From the NCBI GenBank assembly GCA_013152945.1, contig JAADFL010000027.1, positions 1-32,709 on the forward strand: a DNA stretch of 32,709 nucleotides, read 5' to 3'. The notes under the pieces were generated by a model that was not told the DNA's origin, did no database searches, and was given only the letters and a program-made list of their open reading frames with translations. Shown piece after piece: positions 181-32,709 of this stretch. Origin of the DNA: Deltaproteobacteria bacterium (lineage in GTDB: Bacteria > Myxococcota_A > JAADFL01). Made by a program: the position numbers and the translations under genes. Within the stretch, counting starts at the first letter, position 1. Every line of letters starts with the position of its first letter.

Positions 181-3100
181 ATGCACGTACTCAAAACAAG
201 GTCAACGGCTCTCTGCCTGGCCTCGGCCCTGTCTCTCTTATTCTTGTCGTTACCGATTCTGTCAGTGCCGGGGATTGCCCTTGCAGGACCTGCAAACATG
301 AGCTTACACGAGTATTTCGTGTATAGAGACAAGGTGCAGGATCTGGGTGGAGCAAAGCTCGAACTCGGTAAGTGGGACTACCACGACGAGAACGGCCACT
401 GGATACCGGTACCCCGCCTGCTTCGGGGAAAGATATCGGGACCGGGCGTGGTCGTGTCGGCACCGTTCAACGGGTTCAACCCGGACCCCGGCTGGACCAG
501 GATCGTTGTACACGGAACATATAACAGCCTTGAGGTACGCGGCGCAGAGGATGACGGGTCCTTGAGAGGGAAACCCGGTCCCTTTGACGCCTTTGTCGAG
601 ATGAAAGACGGCTCGATACCTCAAAACCTTGCAAACGCCCAATACCTGTCGTACAGGATCAACCTCGGACCGGGTGACCAGGTCCAGGGCATTGATCTTG
701 TAATGACCCGGGAAATCAGGGACAGGCACCCAAGACTGCTCGTGGATGACCTGGACTCTGTGAGACAGCGTTGCATGGGCGCGCTTTCGCACCAGTGTGA
801 AATGAACTCGGCCTTTGCAAACTCGAACCACCTCACGGATCCACTGTCAAACTACGACGACTCGAAGCTGGCACGCGTGGCAAAGGTCATGGCCTTCGAG
901 TACATGATGAAAGGGACCAAGGTCCATGCAGACCGGGTCCGCGCCATATTACTCGAGCTGGCGTCCAGGAGCAGGCAACATTGGAAAGACCTCCATGACT
1001 CCATCCAGGACCTCGGGCTCGGATGGATCGGCCTGTCGTGGATGCTGGCCCTGGATTGGACATGGCCGGCCCTGGAGGAAACCCCCGGCGACTTGCAAAA
1101 GATAGTGGACGGCACGGTAGTGTTCGTAGACTACCTGCTTGAAATGTACAAACACACGGACTTCAACAATCACTTCTACTTGGGCCGCTCGCCTGTGATA
1201 CTCGCGGGTCTCGTCCTGTTCGGCGAGGGTTACCGGGATGACAAGGCCGGGGAATACCTGGACAAAGGCCTGGACTTTCTCTTCAACCACGAACACCCGG
1301 CATTGAACAGCGTTGCAGGCGGGGACGGGGGCTGGCATGAGAGCCTGGGATACTTCGATGGAGAGATGGGATACCCGGTGTTCGTGGACATGGACGGGCT
1401 CCGGACCGCCTCGGGCCTGGATTTCTTCCAGGATTCGTCGTTCTTTCGAACCCTGCCTTACTGGTACTTGAGCAGCACCGTACCTTGGGACAAGACACTG
1501 GTGCACTGGGCCGATCAGGGCAAGGACAGGTGGTCCAAGGCATTGGACGGAAGCGAATCGGAGGGGAAGAACACCAGGGACTACATGACAGGGGTCGTGA
1601 AGAACTTGAGGAGACTGCATTACCCCGAGGCCGAGCTGGGCCAGTACCTTCTGGACGACATGATTGGCACGTACTACGACAGTAGCGGCTATGCAGAATC
1701 ATACTACAAGGTGGCTCACATGAACGACGTGTTGTTCTACGAGCCCGGAGCGCCTGCACGCCCCCTTGAGGACAAGCCTTCTTCCAGGTTGTTCGAGCAC
1801 CTGGGCGAGATCATAATGAGACAAGGCAACTCCCGGAGCGCTCCAATGGCCATGTTCGCCTGCGCCGACTTCAGGGGAGGCCACCAGCAATCCGACAACG
1901 GACACTTCTCGATCTGGTACAAAGGATATCTTGCAGTTGACTCGGGTTACTACGACCACTGGGGCTCGGACCACCATATGAACTATGCAAGGAGGACAAT
2001 CGCACACAACACACTAACCATTACCATGCCGGGCGAGACCTTCACCAACACGTCTTACAATGACGGGGGTCAAAATTTCACTTGTGACACATCGTACTAT
2101 AACCTTCCCATGGAAAACACGGATTGCGACGCATGCGACATGACCTTGACCACCAATCAGGATCCGTACTTCGACTTCATACACGCCGACCTCACGAAAT
2201 CGTACTCGAGCGATAAAGTAGACCTGGTTACGAGAGAATTCGTGTGGATCAGGCCCGATTCTTTCGTGGTGTTCGACAGGGTCGAATCAACCGACGCGGA
2301 CTACAAGAAAAGATTCCTGCTGCACGGCCAGGGTCAATTCAACAAGTCGGGTGATACCTACTACGTGGACGACGGCCAGGGCAGGCTGTTTGTCGAGACT
2401 CTGCTTCCAAAAGCGCCCGAGGTGGTCCAGATTGGAGGAGCCGGACACGAGTGGGAGGTGGATTCGGTCAACTACCCTCCATCAAGGGGACAGGAATTCG
2501 CAGGCACGCACAGGCTCGAGATATCACCGCCCGCGCCTTCCAGGTTCGACCTGTTCCTCCACGTGATGCAGGTCTCTGACCAATCGGCATCCAGCATGGA
2601 GCCTTCGACTTCCATGGAGGCTGGCAATGCCGTGGCCGCACTTGCAGGTGACTGGTTGGTCTGGTTTGCAAAAAAGGATCGTCTATCCTCTCTGGAATAC
2701 GAGATTGAATGGCATAAGGCGCAACACGTAATCGTGGGAGACATGGAGCCCCTGGGCGTGTACGTGGTGGAAACAGGCAAGGCCCGGCAGGTGAAAAGGG
2801 CGGACCAGAACGGGGTGCTGTATTTCCTCGACAAGGAGAACGGCAAGCACGTGGTCAGGATCGGTCCTGCCGGCGGCGAGGTGGAGATTCCGGAAACCCG
2901 GGAGGCTGATGCATGGTTGGAGCAGGAGAAAGAAGAGAATGCAGACGCCCTTAATTCAGAACAGTCGGCAGATGCTGACGCAGCCAAAATACCTGATACA
3001 GGAGGTAATACAGAAGAACCTGCCGCGATCAGTGGATTGAACGGCTCGTGCGGGTGTGCCTCTTTTGGGTCACATGGGAACGGATCGGGAATGTTTTCAC

Positions 3101-7315: not shown

Positions 7316-8902
7316 CTACATCTGGATCTCTTCGTCGAATACGAAATCCTGGTTCCTATCAATACTCGACTGGAGTTCGTTTTCACTCAGTCCGCTCGAA
7401 AGCCTTACAACAGTGGACTGGCGCTGGCCTGTTTGAACGTCCCTGGCGGTTACGTTTACTACACCGTCCGTATCTATCTCGAAGGTCACCTCGATTGCCA
7501 CTTCCCCTCTAACCGACGGTCTGAAACCGGAGAACTCGAATTCACCCAGCAATTCATTTTCTTCCCCCCGGTTGGATTCACCTTGATATATTCGTATTTT
7601 TACCTTGTCCTGGTAGTCTTTTGCAGGTGAGAAAGTCCTTGTCTGGTCTATCGGAATGGGGGTGTTCTTTTCGATGATCTTTTCGCAGTACCCTCCGACC
7701 GTCCCCAATTGCAAGGAGAGCGGTGTAACGTCAAGCAGGTACGTATTTTGCTCCGGAGATATTAGCGATGCCGCCTGTATGGCGGCCCCCATTGCAACCA
7801 CCTCGTCCGGATCGATACCCAATTGCGGATCCCTTCCGAAATAACCCTTCACCGATTCCCGTATTACAGGCAGCCTGGTAGGACCTCCAACAAGTATTAT
7901 TCCATCCAACTCGCCTACAGTCAGGCCGGCCCCTCTCATTGCTTCATCGCAGACCTTGAAGGTTCGTTGCACCAGATCCATTACCATTCTATTGAACTCG
8001 GTACTCGATATCTCGGATACCAGTTCCAATGGTTTGCCGTCTTGATCCTGGCAAATGTTGGGTATTTCGATACGCACTGCATCCCGCTCGGAAAATACCT
8101 TTTTCCCCCGCTCCGCCGCATCCTTGAGTTTTTGCATGGCATGCTTGTCACTGCGTAAATTAATACCAGTTTTTGCAAGGAACCTGTCTGCCATGTGATC
8201 CATCAACCTGGCATCAAAATCATCACCTCCCAAGTAGGTATCACCGGCGGTTGACAAGACCTCGTATGTGTCCTTACCCAGTTCCAAGATGGAAATATCG
8301 AAAGTTCCGCCGCCCAGGTCGTATACCGCGACCCTTTGTTCCAGGTTCTTGCCGTACCCATAGGCGAGAGCTGCTGCAGTGGGCTCATTGATTATGCGCA
8401 GCACATCAAGACCGGCGATCCTTCCCGTGTCCTTTGTGGCTTGCCTCTGGTTGTCGTTGAAATAGGCAGGAACCGTGATGACGCATTTGCTCACGGAATC
8501 CCCGAGATAATCTTCTGCAACCGACTTGAGTTCACGAAGTATCAGGGCCTGTATCTCGGGCAGACTGTAATCTTCGTTCATGATCCTGATTCTGACCGAA
8601 CCATTGGGCCCCTCGACAATCTCGTACGGCATGAGTGTCTTGGCCTGCTTGACTTCCTGGGAATGGTAGAAACGGCCGATTAACCTTTTGGCGGAATATA
8701 CCGTATTGGGAGGATCCAGGATAATCTTATCCTTGGCATCATTACCGACTCTTACACGGCCATCGCTAAGAAATGCGACAACCGAGGCCTGAATCCGTTC
8801 ACCCCAGGCATTGGGTATCACCTTTGCCACACCGTCCTCCACAATCGCAATGCAGGACGTCGATGTTCCGAGGTCGATTCCTAACGCTATGTCTCGATCC
8901 AT
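7316..8902 (-). CDS. Hsp70 (DnaK-family) chaperone lacking the C-terminal lid
   Basis: The nucleotide-binding domain is complete: GIDLGTSTSC at the N-terminus (phosphate 1), VYDLGGGTFDIS (phosphate 2), INEPTAAALAYG, and ILVGGPTRLPVI. The substrate-binding beta domain follows (DVTPLSLQLGT, NTPIPIDQTRTF, FEIDTDGVVNVTARD). The protein stops about 20 residues after that at 528 residues, so the helical lid (about 100 residues) and acidic C-terminal tail of housekeeping DnaK are absent. I start it at ATG 8902 because GGAGGGG lies six bases upstream; ATG 8920 is the alternative. It is probably a specialised paralog working with the adjacent J-domain protein. Confidence 0.87.
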   Translation of the reverse strand: MDRDIALGIDLGTSTSCIAIVEDGVAKVIPNAWGERIQASVVAFLSDGRVRVGNDAKDKIILDPPNTVYSAKRLIGRFYHSQEVKQAKTLMPYEIVEGPNGSVRIRIMNEDYSLPEIQALILRELKSVAEDYLGDSVSKCVITVPAYFNDNQRQATKDTGRIAGLDVLRIINEPTAAALAYGYGKNLEQRVAVYDLGGGTFDISILELGKDTYEVLSTAGDTYLGGDDFDARLMDHMADRFLAKTGINLRSDKHAMQKLKDAAERGKKVFSERDAVRIEIPNICQDQDGKPLELVSEISSTEFNRMVMDLVQRTFKVCDEAMRGAGLTVGELDGIILVGGPTRLPVIRESVKGYFGRDPQLGIDPDEVVAMGAAIQAASLISPEQNTYLLDVTPLSLQLGTVGGYCEKIIEKNTPIPIDQTRTFSPAKDYQDKVKIRIYQGESNRGEENELLGEFEFSGFRPSVRGEVAIEVTFEIDTDGVVNVTARDVQTGQRQSTVVRLSSGLSENELQSSIDRNQDFVFDEEIQM

Positions 8903-9017
8903 TCCGTACCCCTCCGACATACCCGGCGGCTTTTTCTTTCCGGCGTAAACCGTTTGTCGACTCTTACCATCATATCAATAACCACCGGTATCAATCCAGC
9001 CCACTTCAGTTTGCATG

Positions 9018-9827
9018 TTAGAGCGTGCCTATTTCTATTCCCATGTCTCTCTCAGCCATCAATATTTGGCCCGGCTTGAGCTTTAACCAGCCTCTTGGTT
9101 CTCCTTCCAGCCCTACCGCTACCGTAATAAATCTAACATGGTACAACATTTCAGGTTTTCCCCGTCTCCGGCAACGATCACAAGACGGAACATTCTCGAC
9201 CAACCTGTAATACATTTTTTCGTTTCCCACGCTGACTCCCACCAACCTGGCACCGTCTGCCAAGACAATTGCAGATGAGATATTATTGCCCGGGCTTTTT
9301 TGTTTCAAATCTGAAAAAACGGCTCGAACAGCGTTCCTTATACAACTGCCCTTCAGCCTTTCCTCTTCCAAACCTCCGCACACATCCTTGATACCGGCCA
9401 ATAGCATGACGAAAAGTAATTCACTGTCGGTATCGCCTCTAATCACCCTTGCCAAGTAATCCGGCAAGGTCTTGATATGCTCTTCCCTGTATTGTTCCAA
9501 TTCAGGAATCGAGCCCATGTGCGCGAATAAAAAACGGGAATATTTAAAAGGATGGGTATTCTCCAGCTTCGGCCTGCCCATGGTTGCACTCCGTACATGT
9601 GCAACTACGAGGTCGCTCGGGTGGCGATCCAGTTCGGAAACCAAATCGACACCGCCTACCGGAACAGCAGGATGCTTGTGAATGAGGGCCTGCTTTTGCT
9701 GGTAGTATCCAATGCCCCAGCCATCGCCCTTTCGTGTTGCGTTGAGTTCCAGGTCGTCGGCTAAAAAGGCGAGAGAACAGCAAAGCGCATGCGGATCATT
9801 ACTTATCAACCCGAACAACCTTGTCAT
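9018..9827 (-). CDS. Class II glutamine amidotransferase-fold protein, Cys2 replaced by Thr
   Basis: This 269-residue protein resembles the YafJ/EgtC-type Ntn amidotransferase family: MTRLFGLISNDP at the start, then GDGWGIGYY, VVAHVRSATMG, ENTHPFKYS, FAHMGSIPEL and GDTDSELLFVMLL. In catalytic members the residue after Met is the Cys nucleophile. Here codon 2 is ACA (Thr), and the start is firm because GGAGG stands five bases before the ATG. A CxxC pair (CDRC, about residue 218) suggests a small metal site. Glutaminase activity is doubtful, although Thr can be a nucleophile in other Ntn hydrolases. The gene lies 115 nt upstream of the Hsp70 gene on the same strand. Confidence 0.82.
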   Translation of the reverse strand: MTRLFGLISNDPHALCCSLAFLADDLELNATRKGDGWGIGYYQQKQALIHKHPAVPVGGVDLVSELDRHPSDLVVAHVRSATMGRPKLENTHPFKYSRFLFAHMGSIPELEQYREEHIKTLPDYLARVIRGDTDSELLFVMLLAGIKDVCGGLEEERLKGSCIRNAVRAVFSDLKQKSPGNNISSAIVLADGARLVGVSVGNEKMYYRLVENVPSCDRCRRRGKPEMLYHVRFITVAVGLEGEPRGWLKLKPGQILMAERDMGIEIGTL

Positions 9828-12066: not shown

Positions 12067-12253
12067 TTGTTTCCCCTTTCCATCAATTTCATGACTTCTA
12101 TACATTCCGCCACGGTTTTGGGCAAGAACCGTTCACACGATGCTGAAATTTCCCGCAAAATGTGAGAATTGACCATTTACAGCAAAGGTAATAATATCAA
12201 TCTGTACGTATAAGGCTTGGAAATTTTTCAGCCACGCCTTCTTGGAGCGCCTG

Positions 12254-14062
12254 ATGAAAACAAGAAAATCCATTTTAACGGCCTTGAACATCTTTTTCAT
12301 CTTTTCTCTTTCCCCGGATGCCTTTGCAGCCCCGAAATGGGTGGCTGTAAGCTTTGTAGATCCTGACACGAGCACCATTATGGGTGTAAGCTGGGCAGAC
12401 GATCAGGCTGGAAGCGATACCGTGCAATACGGAATGTCCCCGGACAAGCTGAACCTGACCGCCAAGGCCACAAAAGTGGATGCAACGGATATCGGCACAT
12501 TTCACAATGCCGAACTCAAAGATCTTTCCCCTGACACCGAGTACTTCTACCGGGTCGGCGGTACCTCGGGATGGTCAGAGGTTCACAATTTCAATACTGC
12601 ACCGACAAATCCCTGCGAACCCACGAGGTTCGTGGTCCTTGGAGACGGCAGGTCCGACTTGGCCGGGCCATCCAAGAACTTTGCTCCAAACTACAAGGAG
12701 GCCCTGGCCCTGGGGCCGGAATTCATACTTGACAATGGTGACCTCGTAAAAGACGGAGGCAATGCCTCCGAGTGGAAGGACTGGATGGATGCCACTGAAG
12801 GCCTGCTTCCGTCAGTGCCCCACATGCCTGCAATCGGCAATCACGATGACGGTCCCGGGCAGGGAGACTCGGCAAATTACAATAAGATTTTCTACTTGCC
12901 CAGAAATGATGTGAGCAACACGGAAGACTTCTACTTCTTCACGTACGGTCCTGTGGCGGTCGCGGCTATAAGTTCCCAGACCTTTGACGGCGGAACACCC
13001 AAGTATGAACAACAGGCCCAATGGCTCGACCGCATGTTTACGGAGCACCCGAGGCCGTGGAAATTCCTCATGCTCCACCACCCTATATACGTTAGTAATT
13101 CCTGGGCCGGTCATCCCCCGAACGAGAAAGGTCAAAATGCGGCGCTCACTCCTGTAATAGACAAGCACCATATCGACGTAGTTTGGCAGAGCCATGTCCA
13201 CTGGTACGAACGGCTTGGCCCCCTAAAGGGCAACGGCGGAAAAGATGAAGGCATCCCCGTGGATGACAACAACCAAGGAACCGAGTATATCACCACCGGC
13301 GGTGCAGGCGGAGATATCATATTGGTTCCCTGCTTCTCCGCCATGTCCAAGGCCAAGGGATACAAGGCATGCACCAGTAAGAGGCATTTCATAGTCGTGG
13401 ACATAGAGTTCGACAAGATTTCGATCAAAACCCTGGGAACAATAGCAGGTGGAGCAAGCGGCCAGGTTTACGACGAGGTGAGTTGGACCAAGACAGGACT
13501 GGATCCGAATATCTGCCAAACAGGGGATACTGACACCGATACCGACGTTGACACGGATACTGACATCGATACCGACACAGACACAGACACAGACACGGAT
13601 GCGGACAGCGACACCGATACTGATATTGACACGGATACGGATACCGACACCGGCACTGACATTGATACGGATACCGATACCGACATCGACACGGATACGG
13701 GCACTGACGTTGATACGGATACCGACACTGACACCGATACGGATACCGATACTGACACCGACATCGATACGGATACCGATACCGATAACGACGTTGATAC
13801 GGATACGGATACTGATACTGACACTGACACCGACATCGATACGGATACCGATACCGATAACGACGTTGATACGGATATGGATACTGATACGGACACTGAT
13901 ACAGGAACAGAAACAGGAACAGACACGGATCATGGCGGCAGTGACTCGAAAACAGGGGGAGGCTGCTCGGCAATAGGCATGGATGAAACCGGCCTAATAC
14001 TCGGTGTCAGCGGTATTTTCCTACTTTTTGGACTATTTAACCGGAAAAAGAGAAGCCATTGA
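12254..14062 (+). CDS. Secreted purple-acid-type metallophosphatase with Thr-Asp linker and MYXO-CTERM-like tail
   Basis: The 602-residue protein begins with a signal peptide (cut near AFA-AP), followed by a fibronectin-III-like domain (about 27-120) typical of purple acid phosphatases. The catalytic domain has every expected metal element: VVLGDGRSD, LDNGDLVKDG, IGNHDD, LHHPIY and QSHVHWYER. Residues about 424-556 are an acidic run of Thr-Asp with scattered Val, Ile, Asn and Gly. The end is TGGGCS, a hydrophobic helix (LILGVSGIFLLFGLF) and RKKR, like a MYXO-CTERM signal. ATG 12254 has GGAG six bases upstream. The protein is thus probably displayed on the outside and hydrolyses phosphoesters there. 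The linker may bind calcium or act as a spacer. Confidence 0.9.
   Translation: MKTRKSILTALNIFFIFSLSPDAFAAPKWVAVSFVDPDTSTIMGVSWADDQAGSDTVQYGMSPDKLNLTAKATKVDATDIGTFHNAELKDLSPDTEYFYRVGGTSGWSEVHNFNTAPTNPCEPTRFVVLGDGRSDLAGPSKNFAPNYKEALALGPEFILDNGDLVKDGGNASEWKDWMDATEGLLPSVPHMPAIGNHDDGPGQGDSANYNKIFYLPRNDVSNTEDFYFFTYGPVAVAAISSQTFDGGTPKYEQQAQWLDRMFTEHPRPWKFLMLHHPIYVSNSWAGHPPNEKGQNAALTPVIDKHHIDVVWQSHVHWYERLGPLKGNGGKDEGIPVDDNNQGTEYITTGGAGGDIILVPCFSAMSKAKGYKACTSKRHFIVVDIEFDKISIKTLGTIAGGASGQVYDEVSWTKTGLDPNICQTGDTDTDTDVDTDTDIDTDTDTDTDTDADSDTDTDIDTDTDTDTGTDIDTDTDTDIDTDTGTDVDTDTDTDTDTDTDTDTDIDTDTDTDNDVDTDTDTDTDTDTDIDTDTDTDNDVDTDMDTDTDTDTGTETGTDTDHGGSDSKTGGGCSAIGMDETGLILGVSGIFLLFGLFNRKKRSH
13520..13925 (+). 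repeat. Thr-Asp codon repeat tract with a 55-bp perfect direct repeat
   Basis: This is a run of GAY-ACN codon pairs inside the phosphatase gene. It includes a 55-bp segment present identically at 13751-13805 and 13823-13877 (72-bp offset), a sign of recent segmental duplication. The synonymous third positions vary elsewhere, so most of the tract is old. It is likely to vary in length between strains. Confidence 0.8.
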
Positions 14063-25705: not shown

Positions 25706-26239
25706 TCAATTACACAACAGTCTTCGTACGAAGTGGTAGAATTCCCTCGGACCCAGAAATAACAGGTCGACCCGGCCCATGGTTATCTTGGCGCCGGAAC
25801 GCACTTCTTTTTCCTCTCCCACATCCAAGGCGGAATCGTTGAGCATTGTTCCGGCGGCGGATGCATTGTCACGTATAAAGTATTTTTCTCCCCTTTTCTC
25901 TATCCATGCATGTGCACGGGAAACAGATGCATCCCGGATCACTACGTCACATCCATCACCACATCCAATCAAGAACTCATCGGCTTTCGAACCATCTCTC
26001 GACTGAAGCACGAATACCGAGTAATCCACGGCAGGATCGAATTCTTCGGGTATGGATATGGAGGCTTCCCTCTTCATGGCCAACCGGTCCGTTGTCTCGC
26101 CGGGTTCGCCGTTTACAATCAGCAAAGGGTCGAGAACCTGGCAATGCATGAGCACTGCATGAGGATCTTTCTCCATGTACGCATCCACGTCATTTTCATT
26201 GCACAAACTTTTGAATTCGCCTAATGCCTTCAATTTCAA
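25706..26239 (-). CDS. FHA-domain protein, last gene of the HXS-type cluster
   Basis: The 177-residue protein ends in an FHA domain (about 85-165), a phosphothreonine-binding fold: FLIGCGDGCDVVIRD, VSRAHAWIEKRG (family Ser-Arg-x-His), YFIRDNASAAGTMLN and VDLLF. Residues 1-80 are a separate helical segment. It starts at TTG 26239 with GGAG five bases before, 45 nt after the stop of the radical SAM/methyltransferase gene. Co-transcription is likely. The reading frame is open all the way back to that upstream TGA, so it is also in frame with it. The FHA protein may link the peptide system to Ser/Thr kinase signalling, or be unrelated. Confidence 0.83.
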   Translation of the reverse strand: MKLKALGEFKSLCNENDVDAYMEKDPHAVLMHCQVLDPLLIVNGEPGETTDRLAMKREASISIPEEFDPAVDYSVFVLQSRDGSKADEFLIGCGDGCDVVIRDASVSRAHAWIEKRGEKYFIRDNASAAGTMLNDSALDVGEEKEVRSGAKITMGRVDLLFLGPREFYHFVRRLLCN

Positions 26240-26284: not shown

Positions 26285-28015
26285 TCAAGAGCGGGTTTTT
26301 CCGAACACGAGCGTGAAAGAAGGCGAACTCCCGGGCCCCGGCTCACGTTTTTCCTTTAACTCGAAACCCAGTAATGTGGTTATCGGCAAGATCTCCGTGA
26401 TCGAAAGATTGTGGTAATGTTCGAATCTTTTTCCTTCGGGCGGCATGTTTTCGGTTATGACCATGAACGGCGAATCCTCGGAAATCACCAGCAAACCGCC
26501 AGGCTTTATAAGCCTCGATATCATAATCAGCGCGCCCAAAGGGTCCTGCATATGATCCAGGCATCTCAATGCAAGAACCGCATCGAAGTAACGGCCCGGA
26601 AGATCAGCTTCCTCAAAACGTGTTTTCAGATACCTGGCGCCGCGCGGCAGATCCACCGGATCGGAAACCGCATCGTCCCCGGGATCCACTGCCCAGTATT
26701 CCATGTCGTGCCTCTCCACCGAATTCCTGACCTGCTCCATGTAGCAAGGAAAGCCTGCTCCAATATCCAGGACCTTGCCACGAATGTTGGCCACCAGTTG
26801 TTTAAGCCATGTTTTTTCCAGGTCGAAAGGTTTCGATTCGCTTACTCGAAATGAAAGGCCCGGCGAACCTCCTGTTTCCTCGAGTTGAACCAGGGCATCG
26901 TCAATACGATCACAACCAGGATCCTGCATGAAATATACCTGTCCACTTTTCACAACCTCATTCAACAGGTCTTCATCGAAATCCATGGAGCACATGGGCA
27001 CACGAAAGGAATTGTTCGGCAGTTTCACCTCGATTGAATCAGCATGTTCACATCCCAACTCCCTGCCCGGCCACAATGCAATGGAATTAGGCCCGGCCCC
27101 CCTTAAAGGCCTAAGCGCCGATTCCCAGATCGTGCCCCTGTATCCCTCGTACAGCCCGGGACAACGCTCCTTCCATGCACAATCGTAACACTTGCCGGGT
27201 GCATAAAACCTTGCGCCCCTGTCCACCGCCTGGAGTTCCTGCTCGAATGTCTCCATCATGAACCTGATTGAATGCGATTCCAGGTTCTGATCGAGAAGGT
27301 CGAATGCCCCAGGTATACACGCGGGAAAACCATCATAACCGACCTGTACGCCCAACCTGTCGGCCAGGGCCACGGCGGCAAGGACTTCGCTTGCAGTTTC
27401 CTTTGGATCCGGCATTAGTTCGGCCAGGTTTTCAAGCGCGAATCCCTTGGGCTCCATCAATGAGAGTTTCAACCCGGCTCTTGGCATGGAAGCAACGAGT
27501 TCCACAATACCGGACAAACGCTTGACATTTACGCTCGTTATTACGGTGTTGACCACCAGCCATCCGATCCCTGTGTCGTGGAGATTCCTTGTGCCGGCAA
27601 GTGTCTGTTCGAATGCTCCATGCACATCGACCAAGCCGTCGTGCTCCTCCGGAACAGCGGAGTGCAATGAAACCAGGGCATAATCCAACCCTTTTTCAAC
27701 CAGCCTTTCAGCAAGCTTCACATATGAAAACATCCTGGCATTGGTCACGATTCCCGGTATCAAGTCCATTTCGGATGCAGCATGCACGAGCATTTCCAAA
27801 TCATCCCTGATGGCCGGTTCGCCGCCTGAAAATACAACACCGTCACATCCCTTCCGAACAGCCAGTTCCATCCTATGTAATATTTCCCTTGTGGCCAGGG
27901 CGGGCTTATCGCCCCTGCCACGACCCACATGACAAAAGGAGCAGTGATTATTACAGGCATAACCCAGTTTCAGCAGGGCGGCACATTCGAAAGACGGGGA
28001 GATCCTTACCGTCAC
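26285..28015 (-). CDS. Radical SAM enzyme fused to class I methyltransferase, in the HxsC position
   Basis: The 576-residue protein starts with a GTG that overlaps the precursor stop (GTGA). The radical SAM cluster motif is Cys21, Cys25, Cys28 (ACNNHCSFC), and SGGEP at 63-67 binds SAM. A second Cys group (Cys276, 279, 285 in KCYDCAWKERC) fits an auxiliary cluster. Residues about 410-576 form a Rossmann methyltransferase: VLDIGAGFP (415-423), acidic VDPGDD, YFDAVLALRCLDHMQDP and LIKPGGLLVISED. It should modify the HXS precursor just upstream, together with HxsB. HxsC family members, as I recall them, carry a CLMCSQPP-type motif that is absent here, so it is a replacement or a distant HxsC. The GTG is preferred over the upstream in-frame ATG (28123), which only reads the repeat DNA in another frame. 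Confidence 0.82.
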   Translation of the reverse strand: MTVRISPSFECAALLKLGYACNNHCSFCHVGRGRGDKPALATREILHRMELAVRKGCDGVVFSGGEPAIRDDLEMLVHAASEMDLIPGIVTNARMFSYVKLAERLVEKGLDYALVSLHSAVPEEHDGLVDVHGAFEQTLAGTRNLHDTGIGWLVVNTVITSVNVKRLSGIVELVASMPRAGLKLSLMEPKGFALENLAELMPDPKETASEVLAAVALADRLGVQVGYDGFPACIPGAFDLLDQNLESHSIRFMMETFEQELQAVDRGARFYAPGKCYDCAWKERCPGLYEGYRGTIWESALRPLRGAGPNSIALWPGRELGCEHADSIEVKLPNNSFRVPMCSMDFDEDLLNEVVKSGQVYFMQDPGCDRIDDALVQLEETGGSPGLSFRVSESKPFDLEKTWLKQLVANIRGKVLDIGAGFPCYMEQVRNSVERHDMEYWAVDPGDDAVSDPVDLPRGARYLKTRFEEADLPGRYFDAVLALRCLDHMQDPLGALIMISRLIKPGGLLVISEDSPFMVITENMPPEGKRFEHYHNLSITEILPITTLLGFELKEKREPGPGSSPSFTLVFGKTRS

Positions 28016-28425
28016 CAGGAACCGTGCGAACCGTGCGAGCCGTGGGAACCATGGGAAGCGTGGGAACCATGGGAGCCGTGGGAACCATGCGAACCGTGGG
28101 AACCATGCGAACCGTGCGAGCAATGTCCGGCCACGTCCCTCTTATAAGGCTGATCATGCATTGAGCCCTGCACTCTCCCGGCATCTTTACCGGTTGAGAC
28201 CGGTTTACTGCCCCTGACAGCATCGACGGCATGCACATCCAGCCTATGCCTGCGGATTGCAGCAGAGCTTCGCCTTGTTGTCAGGGCTACACCTGATGCA
28301 GCCAGAACAGCCCACCCGGTCTTGGAAAGAAAATTCCTCCTCGTAACCTTTGCGCCGTCGGGAGTGAGGAAGGCAGTTGCTTTCTTCTTCAATTTCGGGA
28401 ACCGTTTATCTCCATCACTCTTCAT
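28012..28425 (-). CDS. hxsA: HxsA-like precursor peptide: Tat leader plus C-terminal His-x-Ser repeats
   Basis: The 137-residue precursor starts at ATG 28425, overlapping the hxsB stop (ATGA), with GGGAGGAAGC as ribosome site. Residues 1-28 are basic. TRRNFLSK (28-35, Arg29-Arg30) followed by a hydrophobic stretch (WAVLAASGVAL) is a twin-arginine export signal. Then comes a spacer (about 52-100) and 12 consecutive His-x-Ser triplets at 101-136: one HCS, six HGS, one HAS, four HGS, then a final Trp137. This matches the His-Xaa-Ser repeat substrate HxsA of the HXS system. It is the likely substrate of the two adjacent radical SAM enzymes. The Tat signal implies folding or cofactor insertion before export. 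A passive His-rich metal-binding role is the alternative. Confidence 0.82.
   Translation of the reverse strand: MKSDGDKRFPKLKKKATAFLTPDGAKVTRRNFLSKTGWAVLAASGVALTTRRSSAAIRRHRLDVHAVDAVRGSKPVSTGKDAGRVQGSMHDQPYKRDVAGHCSHGSHGSHGSHGSHGSHGSHASHGSHGSHGSHGSW
28018..28125 (-). repeat. Twelve His-x-Ser codon triplets (core region of the precursor)
   Basis: The 108-bp tract is built from twelve 9-bp units. His codons alternate CAC and CAT, Gly GGT and GGC, Ser TCC and TCG, so the DNA is not a perfect repeat although the peptide nearly is. The drift with constant peptide fits selection on the protein. In a second minus-strand frame it reads as a chance ORF with a repeated Trp-Phe-Pro-Arg pattern. Confidence 0.85.
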
Positions 28426-29900
28426 GTGCTTCCTCCCTCGCCTTGACCAGGCAACGGTCTCGTCCATCTCTCGAAAATGGACAATGTATCCTGGTCTGCA
28501 TTCTGGAGCCTGGAGAACAACTCGTCAAGTACTCCCATTTGAATCTTGCACCGCTGGTTCTCCGGCTGCCTGGCAACCAGTTCTCCTTGTTGGGCATAAT
28601 TATACACGGGGCAGACCCCGCAGAAAAGTGCATAAGCACAGTCGGCACATCCCGGAAGCGCCTCGACACATGAGGCGGCGGCCAAAGCCTTTACAACCGG
28701 TGAGCCCGCAAGGTCACGATATTCGTCATCCTGAACGTGTCCCACCTTGAACAGGTCGTCGCCGGTCCTGGCCAGCATCCTGCCCTCGTCGCAGGTATAT
28801 ACGGAACCATCGAAATCGTACGCCAACTGGCCCAGGCCGGCGCCGCAGGGCGAACGAAGCTCCATGTAATTGGGTTCACGATCAGTCAATATCTTGGTAA
28901 GGTGGAGAGCAGCGGTCCGCTCCTGTATATCCACGCCGTTCAAAGCATGTTCCATGACACGTGCAAGAACTCGTTTGTAGAAAGCCAGGTATTCATCGGC
29001 ATCATAGCTTATTCCCGCCGCCCTGGAAGCCATGCCGAAAGGATTTAAAGGCCTTGCATGAAGGGTATTCAAACCCAAACGGACGTACTCGTCCACTATT
29101 TCCTCCGGCCGATCCAGGGAAGCTCTCGTAACCGTCAACAAGGCATTTACCTTGTACATTCTCGGATCCAGGTCACGCTTCCTGTACGCATCGTTCATTA
29201 CTTCCATGCCCGCCAAAACCGAATCATGGGAAGAGCCGCCCGGCAACGGCCTGTTCATGTCATGTAGTTCCTTTGGACCGTCCAGGCTCGTGCATACGAA
29301 CACCCCGTTGTCGGCCAGGTAATCCGCGGTCTCCCGGTCGAGCATTGACAGGTTGCTGACAAGTGTCAATACGAGTTCCTTGTCCTTTTCTTCAGCCAAT
29401 TTCCATGCATTTTCGACCACTCGCTTTATTACCCGCAGGTTGACCAGAGGCTCTCCTCCCTGGAATTCGATTGTGACTTGCCTTGCAGGTGTTTCAAAGG
29501 CACGCTCGAGCACCTTGTCTGCGGTTTCGGGTTTCATGTCCACGCCCCTGGTTCCCATGGGCGCCCTGCTGGCATGGCAATACACGCACCTGTGGTCACA
29601 TCTCAACGTGACAATCATTATGTGGAGATTTGTACCCGTAAACAGGTGGCTGTTGCGCCTTGCAATGATACGTACCTGCTCATCCGCGCTCATCCCGCCC
29701 TGAACAAAGCCCTTTTCGGCCAGTTCAGCGAATCTTTCGTGTCCATGTACAATCTCACCGTCCAGGAGATCCTGTAGTTCATCTTCGGCAAGAAATGCAT
29801 ACCTCCCGATATCGTTCGTAACCAGGAAAACATCATCTTCAAGTTTCCTGAAACGAAAATAGGGGGCAGTTGCCGGAAGTGATCTTGCAGGAAGTTTCAT
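28422..29900 (-). CDS. hxsB: HxsB-like radical SAM peptide maturase
   Basis: The 492-residue protein begins at ATG 29900, sharing a base with the upstream TGA (TGATG). Residues about 14-85 match the HxsB N-terminal domain (FRFRKLEDDVFLVTND, then RYAFLAEDEL, then LAEKGFV), probably a peptide-recognition part. Cys101, Cys105 and Cys108 (RCDHRCVYC) are the SAM cluster ligands, and QGGEPLVN is the GGEP motif. The C-terminal SPASM-type region (about 358-470) has many Cys (CGAGLGQ, VYTCDEG, ASCVEALPGCADCAYALFC, GVCP, NQRC) for two more clusters. Role: first or main modification of the His-x-Ser core. Its length and order of genes agree with the HXS system. Confidence 0.87.
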   Translation of the reverse strand: MKLPARSLPATAPYFRFRKLEDDVFLVTNDIGRYAFLAEDELQDLLDGEIVHGHERFAELAEKGFVQGGMSADEQVRIIARRNSHLFTGTNLHIMIVTLRCDHRCVYCHASRAPMGTRGVDMKPETADKVLERAFETPARQVTIEFQGGEPLVNLRVIKRVVENAWKLAEEKDKELVLTLVSNLSMLDRETADYLADNGVFVCTSLDGPKELHDMNRPLPGGSSHDSVLAGMEVMNDAYRKRDLDPRMYKVNALLTVTRASLDRPEEIVDEYVRLGLNTLHARPLNPFGMASRAAGISYDADEYLAFYKRVLARVMEHALNGVDIQERTAALHLTKILTDREPNYMELRSPCGAGLGQLAYDFDGSVYTCDEGRMLARTGDDLFKVGHVQDDEYRDLAGSPVVKALAAASCVEALPGCADCAYALFCGVCPVYNYAQQGELVARQPENQRCKIQMGVLDELFSRLQNADQDTLSIFERWTRPLPGQGEGGST

Positions 29901-30118
29901 CAGCCGGCATCTCCGTCTTCTCCGCGGGCCTTTTCCACGGTTCTTGCAATTACATAGTTTCCGAATTCCCAGGCCACGAGATCGGCATCGTATCCCTTGC
30001 GTGAAACAATTTTCAACTTACGCCCCGAATCACCCGGTGCCACTCGTATTGCTGCCACTCCTGAAAATGCATCAACCGCCTCTTCAATTGCCTCATCCGT
30101 GAACAATGAATCATCCAT
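29900..30118 (-). CDS. Small second HxsD-like protein
   Basis: I start this 72-residue protein at ATG 30118, 25 nt after the HxsD stop, since its order of elements then copies HxsD: FTDEAIEEAVDAF (compare YPDDAVMGAAYVF), a beta-strand pair (AIRVAPG, KLKIVSRKG) and EFGNYVIARTV (compare GFENELLHQAW). A longer form from 30220 would overlap hxsD by 77 bases and adds a basic, unpredicted tail. Its TGA overlaps the hxsB ATG. It is probably a truncated paralog that binds precursor or HxsB. The match is by eye and is weak. Confidence 0.62.
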   Translation of the reverse strand: MDDSLFTDEAIEEAVDAFSGVAAIRVAPGDSGRKLKIVSRKGYDADLVAWEFGNYVIARTVEKARGEDGDAG

Positions 30119-30143
30119 GTTTAATATCTTGCTCTTTGCCACG

Positions 30144-30560
30144 TCAACCGCCTTTGCCGTCTTTCCCGAATTTTTCTTCCCATGGAACCGCGATACCCAA
30201 TGGATCCTCGAGGTAGTCACCCGGTTCTTGCCCTATATGTTCTCCCCGGGTCTCTTCTTCGCTGTCGTCGTCCTGCGCGGTCAACAAGGCCCTGGCAAGT
30301 ATGTACTCACGAAGACGCCCCCTGCTCTGCTCCAGCCTGATACGCCAAGCCTGGTGCAACAACTCGTTCTCAAACCCGCCGGCCAGTTCCTCCAGGCCGT
30401 GCCGTCCTGTTTCATTCTTGGCCTTGAGACGCACAACGATCTTTTTCCTGTCTTGTCCGGCCTTTTCGAGCCTCACGTAACACCTGTCGATGAATACGTA
30501 TGCAGCACCCATGACAGCATCATCCGGGTAGATATCTGTATCGATTTCCAGGAGAACCAT
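30144..30560 (-). CDS. hxsD: HxsD-like accessory protein
   Basis: The 138-residue protein fits HxsD of the His-Xaa-Ser system, whose family mark is a late LLNDYxLRE-like element; here it is ENELLHQAWRIRLE (about 65-78), followed by REYILARALL. The N-terminal part reads DIYPDDAVMGAAYVFIDR, then strands YVRLEKAG and KIVVRLKAK. A conserved-looking acidic/aromatic tail ends DPLGIAVPWEEKFG. I choose ATG 30560, with GAGG four bases before it, over 30656, which would overlap the upstream gene. It follows the surface-protein gene by 47 nt. Role is unproven, probably substrate delivery to HxsB. Confidence 0.78.
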   Translation of the reverse strand: MVLLEIDTDIYPDDAVMGAAYVFIDRCYVRLEKAGQDRKKIVVRLKAKNETGRHGLEELAGGFENELLHQAWRIRLEQSRGRLREYILARALLTAQDDDSEEETRGEHIGQEPGDYLEDPLGIAVPWEEKFGKDGKGG

Positions 30561-30607: not shown

Positions 30608-32709
30608 TCAAGGACAACCTCCGCCGTTGCGTATCTCCACGACATAGGGATCGCATGTCATCGAAACACCGTCAATCCTGTAAACCTGGAGAAAATACCA
30701 GGCCGTATCGTCATCGCAATGATCCCTGCCGGGCGTCAGGGGTTGGCCGCTTGGTATACAGTTGCATTGGTCCTCGGTATTCGTGCCTCCCCCGGGGTGG
30801 TCGTCCGCCAAGTCTCCCGTCTTCTGCTGAGAACAGAGCATGGTCCTTTTAGAGCAATCGATTGCGGCGCCTTTTTGCTTGTAGAGGTCGAATTGGTACT
30901 GGTTGCCGGGATTGCTTGTAAACTTCACCTGTACCTTGAAATGGTCCTTTCCCTGGTTGTCATCACCACGGCTGTCAACCGCCTTGAACACAAACCAGTC
31001 CGAGGCCCATGCATTTGCAGCCCATGGGATATTGGAACTGACTGTAATGGGGGTATTGTTGTCGGATACATCCGGCAGCCGAACCGCATCGGCACACCCC
31101 CTGCCCCCGGGTGTCCCCTTCTGGAAGCACTCGCAGCCGGTATCGAATACCTTGTCCAGGTCGTAATAACCATCTTCACATCCGAGCAACACGCATGTAT
31201 TGCCGCCCTGGCAATTTATTCCGGTAACATGAGTGCCTTGGGCGAGCCTTCCCCAGCAATCCTGCGTGCACTCGCAACCGTCACCGTATGCACGGTCCAC
31301 GTCAAAGTACCCGTCCTTGCACGATGCAACCTGGCATTGCCCGTCGAGGCAGGCCACGCCATCCGCGTTCTGCGGAATCTGGCATAACTGGTCTGCAGGA
31401 GCGTCGTCTATTTTACCGTTGCAATCATTGTCTTTCTTGTCACAGGCCAATGCAGTCTTGTAACACGGCCCGTACTCGCAGCCATCTGAAAAATCATTGT
31501 TGTTGTCCCATTGGCCCGGATTACAGGCATCGATCTGGCAAGCTCCATCCTTACAGGACACTACGGCCGCGCCGTTCGGAGTTCCACAAAGCTGCGAGAT
31601 CGGCCCTTCGTCCACCTGGCCATTACAATCGTTGTCAACTTTGTCGCAGACCTCCGGTCCTGTCTTTGTACACGGACCATACTCACAGCCATCAGACGGA
31701 TCGTGGTTTGCATCCCAGTAACCTGCCGGGCAACCTACTCCATGTCCCGCCAATGGAATCAACTTGACAGGCCCATCCAGGTCATTGGTGGTTATCTTGA
31801 TGTTGCCCGAAAACATTCCCTCGCCGGCCGGAGTGAAAGTCGCACCGAAGAATATCCTGCTTCCCGGGCTGTCCAGGTTCTTGGGCAGGCCGTTCGGAAT
31901 ACCCGACAGATCGACCTGGAACACCGGATCGGAGTTCGGATCGATCTCGATCTTGAGAACCTGCAGTGTGCCGGAGCCGGTCTTTGATAACTGGAAAGAC
32001 GCAGGTTGCGACGTGGCTCCCTTGAATACATCCTTGAAATCGTACCCGGCCGGATCCACTACGAGTGTGGGGTTTACTCCTGTTCCGGAGATCACCACGC
32101 CCAGTTTATCGTTGTCAGGATCATTGCATTCTATCATCATTCCGCCCGAATCGGTCCCTTCGTCTACAGGCGAATAGGAAAAGGTCACTGTTACATCCTT
32201 GCCAGGGGCGATGGGATCTATCGACTTGGGACTGAAGTCCAACTCCGGAGAAATCCCGGCTGTCAATTCAATCTTGGTAATCTCCAGATCCTGGCCCCCG
32301 ATGTTTGAAATCGTCAGTGTCTTATCCAGCTTTGCACCTACTTGGACCTCTCCGAAATCAACCTGGTTGGCGGACAGCTTTATCGCCGGAGCCTGACTCG
32401 CCCTGCCCTTCAGCAAAAGTTCCACCGGATCCAGCTTATCTGCATCCACCACGATCTTGCCCTGGTCACCGGCAGAAACCAAGGGAGGCGTATACGTGAC
32501 CTTGAATCCTGCCTCGCCGCCGGGATCCAAATCCCATGTAACCTTGCCGCCGGTGTCCAACCCGAACATGGATGTCCCTTCAGTAAGTGTCACTGAAGAA
32601 ACGTGGATGGGACTCGTGCCCTTGTTGGTCATGGTGACATCCAGTTCCTTGGTCTTCCCCACGTAAACCGTGCCGAAATCGACCGGGTTGGGAAGCACGG
32701 AAAGCTCGG
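30608..32709 (-). CDS. Secreted choice-of-anchor-D / MopE-repeat surface protein (5' end outside window)
   Basis: The window holds the last 699 residues; no start is seen and the frame is open to the edge, so it is partial. Three ASH/choice-of-anchor-D-like beta domains come first, each beginning with a motif like NPVDFGTVYVG, NQVDFGEVQVG or GYDFKDVFKG. Two MopE-type metal-binding loops follow (CDKVDNDCNGQVDE and CDKKDNDCNGKIDD), with four modules of the form W/Y-D then DGCE or GCEC (for example YFDVDRAYGDGCEC). The C-terminal 180 residues are a Cys-rich, Asp-rich beta domain that resembles a pre-peptidase domain, ending NGGGCP. It is probably a large calcium- or metal-binding cell-surface protein, lying directly upstream of the HXS genes. 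Confidence 0.82.
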   Translation of the reverse strand, partial: ELSVLPNPVDFGTVYVGKTKELDVTMTNKGTSPIHVSSVTLTEGTSMFGLDTGGKVTWDLDPGGEAGFKVTYTPPLVSAGDQGKIVVDADKLDPVELLLKGRASQAPAIKLSANQVDFGEVQVGAKLDKTLTISNIGGQDLEITKIELTAGISPELDFSPKSIDPIAPGKDVTVTFSYSPVDEGTDSGGMMIECNDPDNDKLGVVISGTGVNPTLVVDPAGYDFKDVFKGATSQPASFQLSKTGSGTLQVLKIEIDPNSDPVFQVDLSGIPNGLPKNLDSPGSRIFFGATFTPAGEGMFSGNIKITTNDLDGPVKLIPLAGHGVGCPAGYWDANHDPSDGCEYGPCTKTGPEVCDKVDNDCNGQVDEGPISQLCGTPNGAAVVSCKDGACQIDACNPGQWDNNNDFSDGCEYGPCYKTALACDKKDNDCNGKIDDAPADQLCQIPQNADGVACLDGQCQVASCKDGYFDVDRAYGDGCECTQDCWGRLAQGTHVTGINCQGGNTCVLLGCEDGYYDLDKVFDTGCECFQKGTPGGRGCADAVRLPDVSDNNTPITVSSNIPWAANAWASDWFVFKAVDSRGDDNQGKDHFKVQVKFTSNPGNQYQFDLYKQKGAAIDCSKRTMLCSQQKTGDLADDHPGGGTNTEDQCNCIPSGQPLTPGRDHCDDDTAWYFLQVYRIDGVSMTCDPYVVEIRNGGGCP

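Follow-up and report, generated by a model that had tools for sequence, protein, structure and literature searches.

A His-Xaa-Ser repeat precursor with a candidate twin-arginine export signal, and an unnamed C-terminal domain that co-occurs with its maturase gene in Myxococcota_A

What is made from a bacterial protein that ends in twelve tandem His-Xaa-Ser triplets, and where does the product act? The question is raised by a 137 aa ORF in a 32,709 nt stretch of DNA (hereafter the window) from a deltaproteobacterial genome of the phylum Myxococcota_A (contig JAADFL010000027.1). The original prediction for this ORF, made from the sequence, was a peptide precursor exported by the twin-arginine translocation (Tat) pathway. 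The literature that we found under the names HxsA and HxsB contains no characterization of the Hxs product or of its place of action, and within the literature found neither modification nor export has been measured for any HxsA, nor has a cross-link been reported.

The ORF occupies positions 28012..28425 of the minus strand, stop codon included, running from an ATG at 28425 to a stop at 28014-28012. It is present as originally described, except that the strand had been left unstated, and the plus strand encodes no such protein. A Shine–Dalgarno-like sequence (AGGGAGGA) lies immediately 5′ of the start codon, which shares an ATGA overlap with the 3′ end of hxsB; an in-frame upstream ATG at 28467, giving 151 aa, was judged a less likely start. 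The twelve tandem H-x-S triplets lie at residues 101–136 (28018..28125, minus strand), with HCS first, as had been claimed, followed by six HGS, one HAS and four HGS; the HAS at triplet 8, set among ten HGS, had been missed. Translation also bears out Trp137 (codon TGG, 28015..28017, minus strand) as the last residue. The array DNA contains a 9 bp tandem repeat in 11 copies, and its units differ almost solely by synonymous third-base changes (CAC/CAT, GGT/GGC, TCG/TCC), which indicates that selection keeps the protein pattern.

These silent changes, a match to the HxsA4 family model and the occurrence of HxsA4 in other genomes show that the array is no chance pattern. The match to NF038313 is marginal in score (55.7 bits against a cut-off of 55, and 54.0 bits in a six-frame search) and covers profile positions 47–93 only, reaching the last profile position and leaving the precursor leader outside. 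Coming from within an hxs operon, this family match supports the predicted identity as a peptide precursor, and it is virtually certain that the ORF, hereafter hxsA4, encodes an HxsA4 precursor. Because the HxsA4 is genuine, the precursor is not of a new kind; its kind is known, and common in this phylum, where 125 of 377 genomes have HxsB above its cut-off. Two further readings of the array were rejected, as a collagen-like Pfam match (20.7 bits, below 27.2) reflects composition only, and the residue before the Cys of HCS is His, so that no lipobox is present.

The hxs genes form one tight minus-strand array with 4 nt ATGA and GTGA overlaps, in the 5′ to 3′ order multidomain gene, hxsD, HxsD-like gene, hxsB, hxsA4 and HxsC-like/methyltransferase gene. 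All of the following coordinates refer to the minus strand. The radical-SAM/SPASM maturase gene hxsB (28422..29900) encodes a CDHRCVYC motif and passes TIGR03978 with 530.7 bits (cut-off 370); the HxsD-like protein (29900..30220), a paralogue of HxsD, passes NF038315 with 44.3 bits (cut-off 41); and hxsD itself (30144..30560), whose reading frame is open from 30656 with a likely ATG at 30560, passes TIGR03976 with 59.2 bits (cut-off 50). The locus, with precursor, maturase and both small proteins above their cut-offs in one operon, is the same as the known His-Xaa-Ser system in these respects. The predicted structure of HxsD is beta-alpha-beta-beta-alpha (mean pLDDT 78). Its assignment to a known peptide-recognition domain (RRE) was rejected, as weak Pcc1-like and similar matches were obtained (E 0.018 or worse), with no RRE among the best 50 matches.

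The operon differs from that known system in its twin-arginine-type leader signal, considered below, and in the protein that fills the HxsC position, a radical-SAM enzyme with a C-terminal methyltransferase domain (26285..28015; Radical_SAM and Methyltransf_11 matches). Its GTG start overlaps the hxsA4 stop (GTGA), and it falls below the cut-offs of both HxsC (TIGR03977, 87.8 versus 267.9 bits) and HxsC4 (77.9 versus 500). Radical-SAM/methyltransferase fusions of this type occur at 26 loci of the phylum without a curated family name, including eight of 34 regions picked solely by hxsB or hxsA4 and not by the fusion protein. The class I methyltransferase domain (26318..26824; PF08241, 37.1 bits) has VLDxGxG, DP and FDxVLxLR motifs that are conserved in the 26 fusions, and suggests an additional methylation. 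The dual HxsD arrangement 5′ of hxsB recurs in nearly all complete loci, as well as in one Chloroflexi locus (L039, precursor at 8961–9686, plus strand) and one Woesearchaeota locus (L040, precursor at 7383–7760, plus strand). The precursor is very probably modified by the enzymes of this operon. The FHA gene downstream (25706–26239) was left out of the system because no homologue lies beside other hxs loci. Elsewhere in the window (12242–14062, plus strand), a metallophosphatase-like ORF continues into a long Asp-Thr repeat linker and then a C-terminal membrane tail.

HxsA4 scored above its cut-off in 41 genomes of a 140-genome sample of the phylum. The first triplet is HCS in 59 of 66 arrays and Trp is last in 62 of 66, so that the Cys and the final Trp singled out in the original prediction are indeed conserved features. 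First triplets other than HCS read HGS or HAS, and the Cys, originally suggested as a possible link or metal ligand, is therefore not indispensable; at least two of the few arrays without Trp are cut by contig ends. Triplet number ranges from 7 to 49 among the arrays compared, the HxsA4 with 49 being encoded at L065 (5984–6613, minus strand), and L112 carries two near-identical hxsA4 genes in tandem (1718–1993 and 2400–2675, plus strand). A search beside orphan hxsA4 copies for conserved neighbours apart from hxsA4 gave only small within-family clusters. In one family, represented by L097, L099, L104, L107 and L110, hxsA4 is on another contig, and the hxsB loci are adjoined by a secreted protein family of ~700 aa (for example, L099:7806-10046).

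The leader of the precursor consists of two parts. Residues 9–27 (FPKLKKKATAFLTPDGAKV; 28345..28401, minus strand) carry the motif LPkhKKxxxxFLSsEEGkI, which HxsA4 leaders share whether or not they have a hydrophobic stretch; the conservation of this motif points to a probable maturase docking site. Residues 28–56 (28258..28344, minus strand) make up a Tat-like signal of TRRNFLSK, the hydrophobic stretch TGWAVLAASGVALTT, basic residues and SSAA. The twin-arginine leader TRRNFL was thus correctly recognized; it occupies residues 28–33 and, with the hydrophobic stretch behind it, has the form S/T-R-R-x-F-L expected of a Tat substrate. The Tat signal model TIGR01409 gives the precursor 16.0 bits, just under the cut-off of 16.7, and TatC is encoded in the same genome (180 bits; cut-off 132.7).

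Beyond the window, motif and hydrophobic stretch are found together in the Chloroflexi and Woesearchaeota precursors. HxsA4 leaders across the phylum mostly have no hydrophobic stretch; some families possess one, with an AxA-like site, behind the leader motif. Among the 66 arrays, RR followed by a hydrophobic stretch occurs only in the window precursor, in L082/L101 and in L035, and the leader of L101, an independent family, reads TRRDFV. Signal-type leaders in related families read TRG, TRK or TRS, and may be Sec signals. The original prediction had named loss of the RR motif and of Cys/Trp from homologues as evidence against itself, and on this point the outcome is mixed, with Cys and Trp kept and RR mostly absent. 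Tat export itself fared likewise: the twin-arginine route fits the leader, but RR is rare in homologues and TIGR01409 is just missed. The product is likely to be exported, and Tat is the probable route, although with less assurance than export as such.

The loss of RR in homologues is informative, because where HxsA4 has no hydrophobic signal, the genome instead has the gene of a distinct protein whose signal contains an invariant RR (MNRRDMIK, MHSRRDLLK or MQSRRDILK). This family of ~170 aa, for convenience called TatP, was found by grouping genes around hxsB. It is absent from the genome of the window and present in 16 hxs regions (L059, L060, L063, L065–L068, L100, L109, L153, L157, L159, L165, L170, L176 and L178); L165 has two HxsA4 and two TatP genes. 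In the 140-genome set, TatP was found in 32 of 47 hxsB genomes, compared with one of 93 others. Among hxsB genomes with a known, scorable precursor, leader hydropathy was 1.21–1.51 in the 12 without TatP and at most 1.20 in the 28 with it, a complete separation with a thin margin (1.21 versus 1.20), in genomes that share ancestry and by a measure picked after viewing the sequences. The separation is also complete at the level of families (6 versus 10). A stricter rule based on uncharged runs is less clean, misplacing four TatP genomes and one TatP-less genome.

Another 21 genomes with known leaders gave a similar picture: all three with signal-type leaders lack TatP, and 16 of the 18 with non-signal leaders have it, four of these 18 having served as seeds. 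The exceptions, G176 and G354, are of the same genus and combine non-signal leaders with no clear TatP; the hxs region L170 of this genus holds a diverged RRRFL protein. As for individual TatP-less genomes, G112 has a precursor with a signal-type leader, G065 encodes an HxsA of the standard type whose N-terminus is signal-like, and in G001 a precursor was looked for and none was found. The plainest reading of this alternation would be that HxsA4 needs export, either through its own signal in cis or through a Tat-signal partner in trans. One published study (PMC10924467) describes Tat substrates that travel as heterodimers in which one partner bears the signal peptide, and offers a model for a putative pairing of TatP with signal-less HxsA4. 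As far as could be found, the cis/trans alternation of the HxsA4 export signal has not been described before, and it lends unexpected comparative support to a Tat reading that we consider plausible.

A second set of proteins connected with the system came from the gene upstream of hxsD. This gene encodes a multidomain protein (30608..32707, minus strand; choice-of-anchor D and MopE-like repeats by family matches) that is cut by the contig end, and within it genome comparison delimits an unnamed C-terminal domain (CTD) of ~200 residues that co-occurs with hxsB (30611..31198, minus strand). The CTD had no match in Pfam or NCBIfam, one match only to solved structures (E 1.6, with the CTD profile), and a single-sequence structure prediction of the window copy was unusable (pLDDT 44). 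Versions of it adjoin many other hxs loci, and at L068 TatP sits between the CTD gene and hxsD, yet the copies, usually several per genome, are mostly unlinked to hxs. Across the 377 genomes, the counts for both, hxsB only, CTD only and neither were 117/8/7/245; in the 237 genomes that the first look had not covered, which include three of the ten CTD profile seeds, they were 72/6/6/153. Part of the mismatch looks technical, since several CTD-only genomes have a completeness of 58–89%, a contig of G208 ends within a fragment of hxsB (L086), and G238 carries a diverged CTD copy beside hxs.

The association persists inside families in which both states occur (stratified p = 5e-8), whereas a different domain of the multidomain window protein, used as a control, has only a loose relation to hxsB (44/3/55/38). 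At all 30 of the 30 loci compared, the CTD ends 1–11 residues from the C-terminus, and at least 9 of the 13 CTD-protein ORFs whose N-termini were inspected start with lipobox-like signals, from which most CTD proteins are predicted to be lipoproteins. A search of 12 Hxs genomes from other phyla, a set with no positive control, turned up no CTD. Taken from genome comparison, a functional link between the Hxs system and the CTD proteins is highly likely, and such an hxsB-linked domain is, as far as could be found, previously undescribed.

The overall explanation that we lean towards is a ribosomally made, radical-SAM-modified Hxs peptide with a two-part leader, exported by Tat and acting in the envelope together with CTD proteins. 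The motif at residues 9–27 would dock HxsB, probably with HxsD and the HxsD-like protein; HxsB, and probably also the HxsC-methyltransferase, would then modify the array of H-x-S triplets while it is still cytoplasmic. Cyclophane enzymes acting at i/i+2 suggest, by analogy, that the likeliest reaction would link the His ring with the beta carbon of Ser inside a triplet. Known enzymes form i/i+2 bonds between His C2 and the beta carbon of either Ala or Arg, and between Phe C4 and that of Ser (PMC11002830). The triceptides, three-residue cyclophanes (HaaB, YhhB and MscB; PMC11002830), resemble the system of the window in having an aromatic residue at i, the target at i+2 and radical-SAM/SPASM enzymes, but the window HxsB lies far below the cut-offs of known cyclophane-forming maturase families (GrrM, 53.1/310 bits; FxsB, 48/370; YhhB, 50.3/445), and a His-Ser cyclophane is a tentative suggestion, with the odds somewhat against it. 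The modified product would leave through Tat with residues 28–56 as its signal, a route that suits HxsA4 because the cargo would be modified before transport, and outside it would act at the cell envelope with CTD surface proteins, mostly predicted lipoproteins. More speculatively still, Hxs in this phylum may be a Tat-coupled envelope-assembly system, in which a folded peptide, exported by its own signal or a partner's, serves as an attachment or functional partner of CTD lipoproteins.

Alternatively, the hydrophobic stretch could serve as a membrane anchor or as a signal for Sec, with the modified peptide threaded through Sec and the RR of the window precursor accidental. The TRG, TRK and TRS leaders of related families would suit this, as would the Sec-like appearance of the N-termini of standard HxsA and the precedent of bufferins, modified peptides that are exported by Sec (PMC12452194). 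The bufferin leader doubles as the export signal, a property that the same paper calls highly unusual for such precursors and that it shares with the present proposal, although bufferins differ in their MNIO enzymes, Cys substrate and Sec signal, and the term Tat is absent from the main text of that paper. Against Sec stand the match of TRRNFL to the Tat consensus, TRRDFV in the independent L101 family and the invariant RR of the trans companion TatP in other genomes. The hydrophobic stretch of the window precursor is also followed by a basic RR, and basic residues in this position disfavour Sec. We consider the Sec reading rather unlikely. It is less likely again that the stretch is nothing more than a piece of the maturase-binding leader, removed in the cytoplasm, with the peptide leaving by another transporter or staying inside. 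Its continuity with the conserved leader motif would fit, as would the majority of leaders in the phylum that have no hydrophobic stretch, but the alternation with a Tat-signal companion and the AxA-like sites would stay unexplained, and standard HxsA has a peptidoglycan-binding domain. Standard HxsA (TIGR03979), known from other phyla, resembles the window precursor in its His-Xaa-Ser repeats, signal-like N-terminal sequence and position beside HxsB and HxsC; it differs in that this domain is C-terminal and its repeats are short and mixed, whereas the window precursor ends at the array with Trp.

The array itself might be an unmodified, metallochaperone-like His-rich tail that binds metal, the radical-SAM enzymes acting elsewhere. 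His-rich repeats generally bind metal, and one relative gave a weak UreE match, but hxsB, hxsD and hxsA lie side by side and are conserved together across many families and phyla, and metal binding needs neither Ser at each third position nor an exact triplet register; this makes the idea very improbable. A different view of the CTD proteins, compatible with the Tat-exported Hxs peptide that we prefer, would make them cargo of a sorting system with poly-HxS as anchor or acceptor, as with C-terminal tags. The strictly C-terminal position of the CTD, its several, mostly unlinked copies per genome and its tracking of hxsB are what such a system would predict; however, a sortase-like enzyme was not found, the domain measures ~200 aa with no sign of cleavage, and the 12 Hxs genomes searched in other phyla gave no copy of it, so that we hold sorting to be possible but doubtful.

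Overall, Hxs has long been recognized from sequence, and the comparisons presented here make its function testable, through Tat export, in cis or by way of TatP, and through the CTD proteins, which occur almost only where HxsB does. If the proposal is true, the product of the window precursor would be, to our knowledge, the first peptide of this class to be exported by Tat, and would give a direct handle on what Hxs does.
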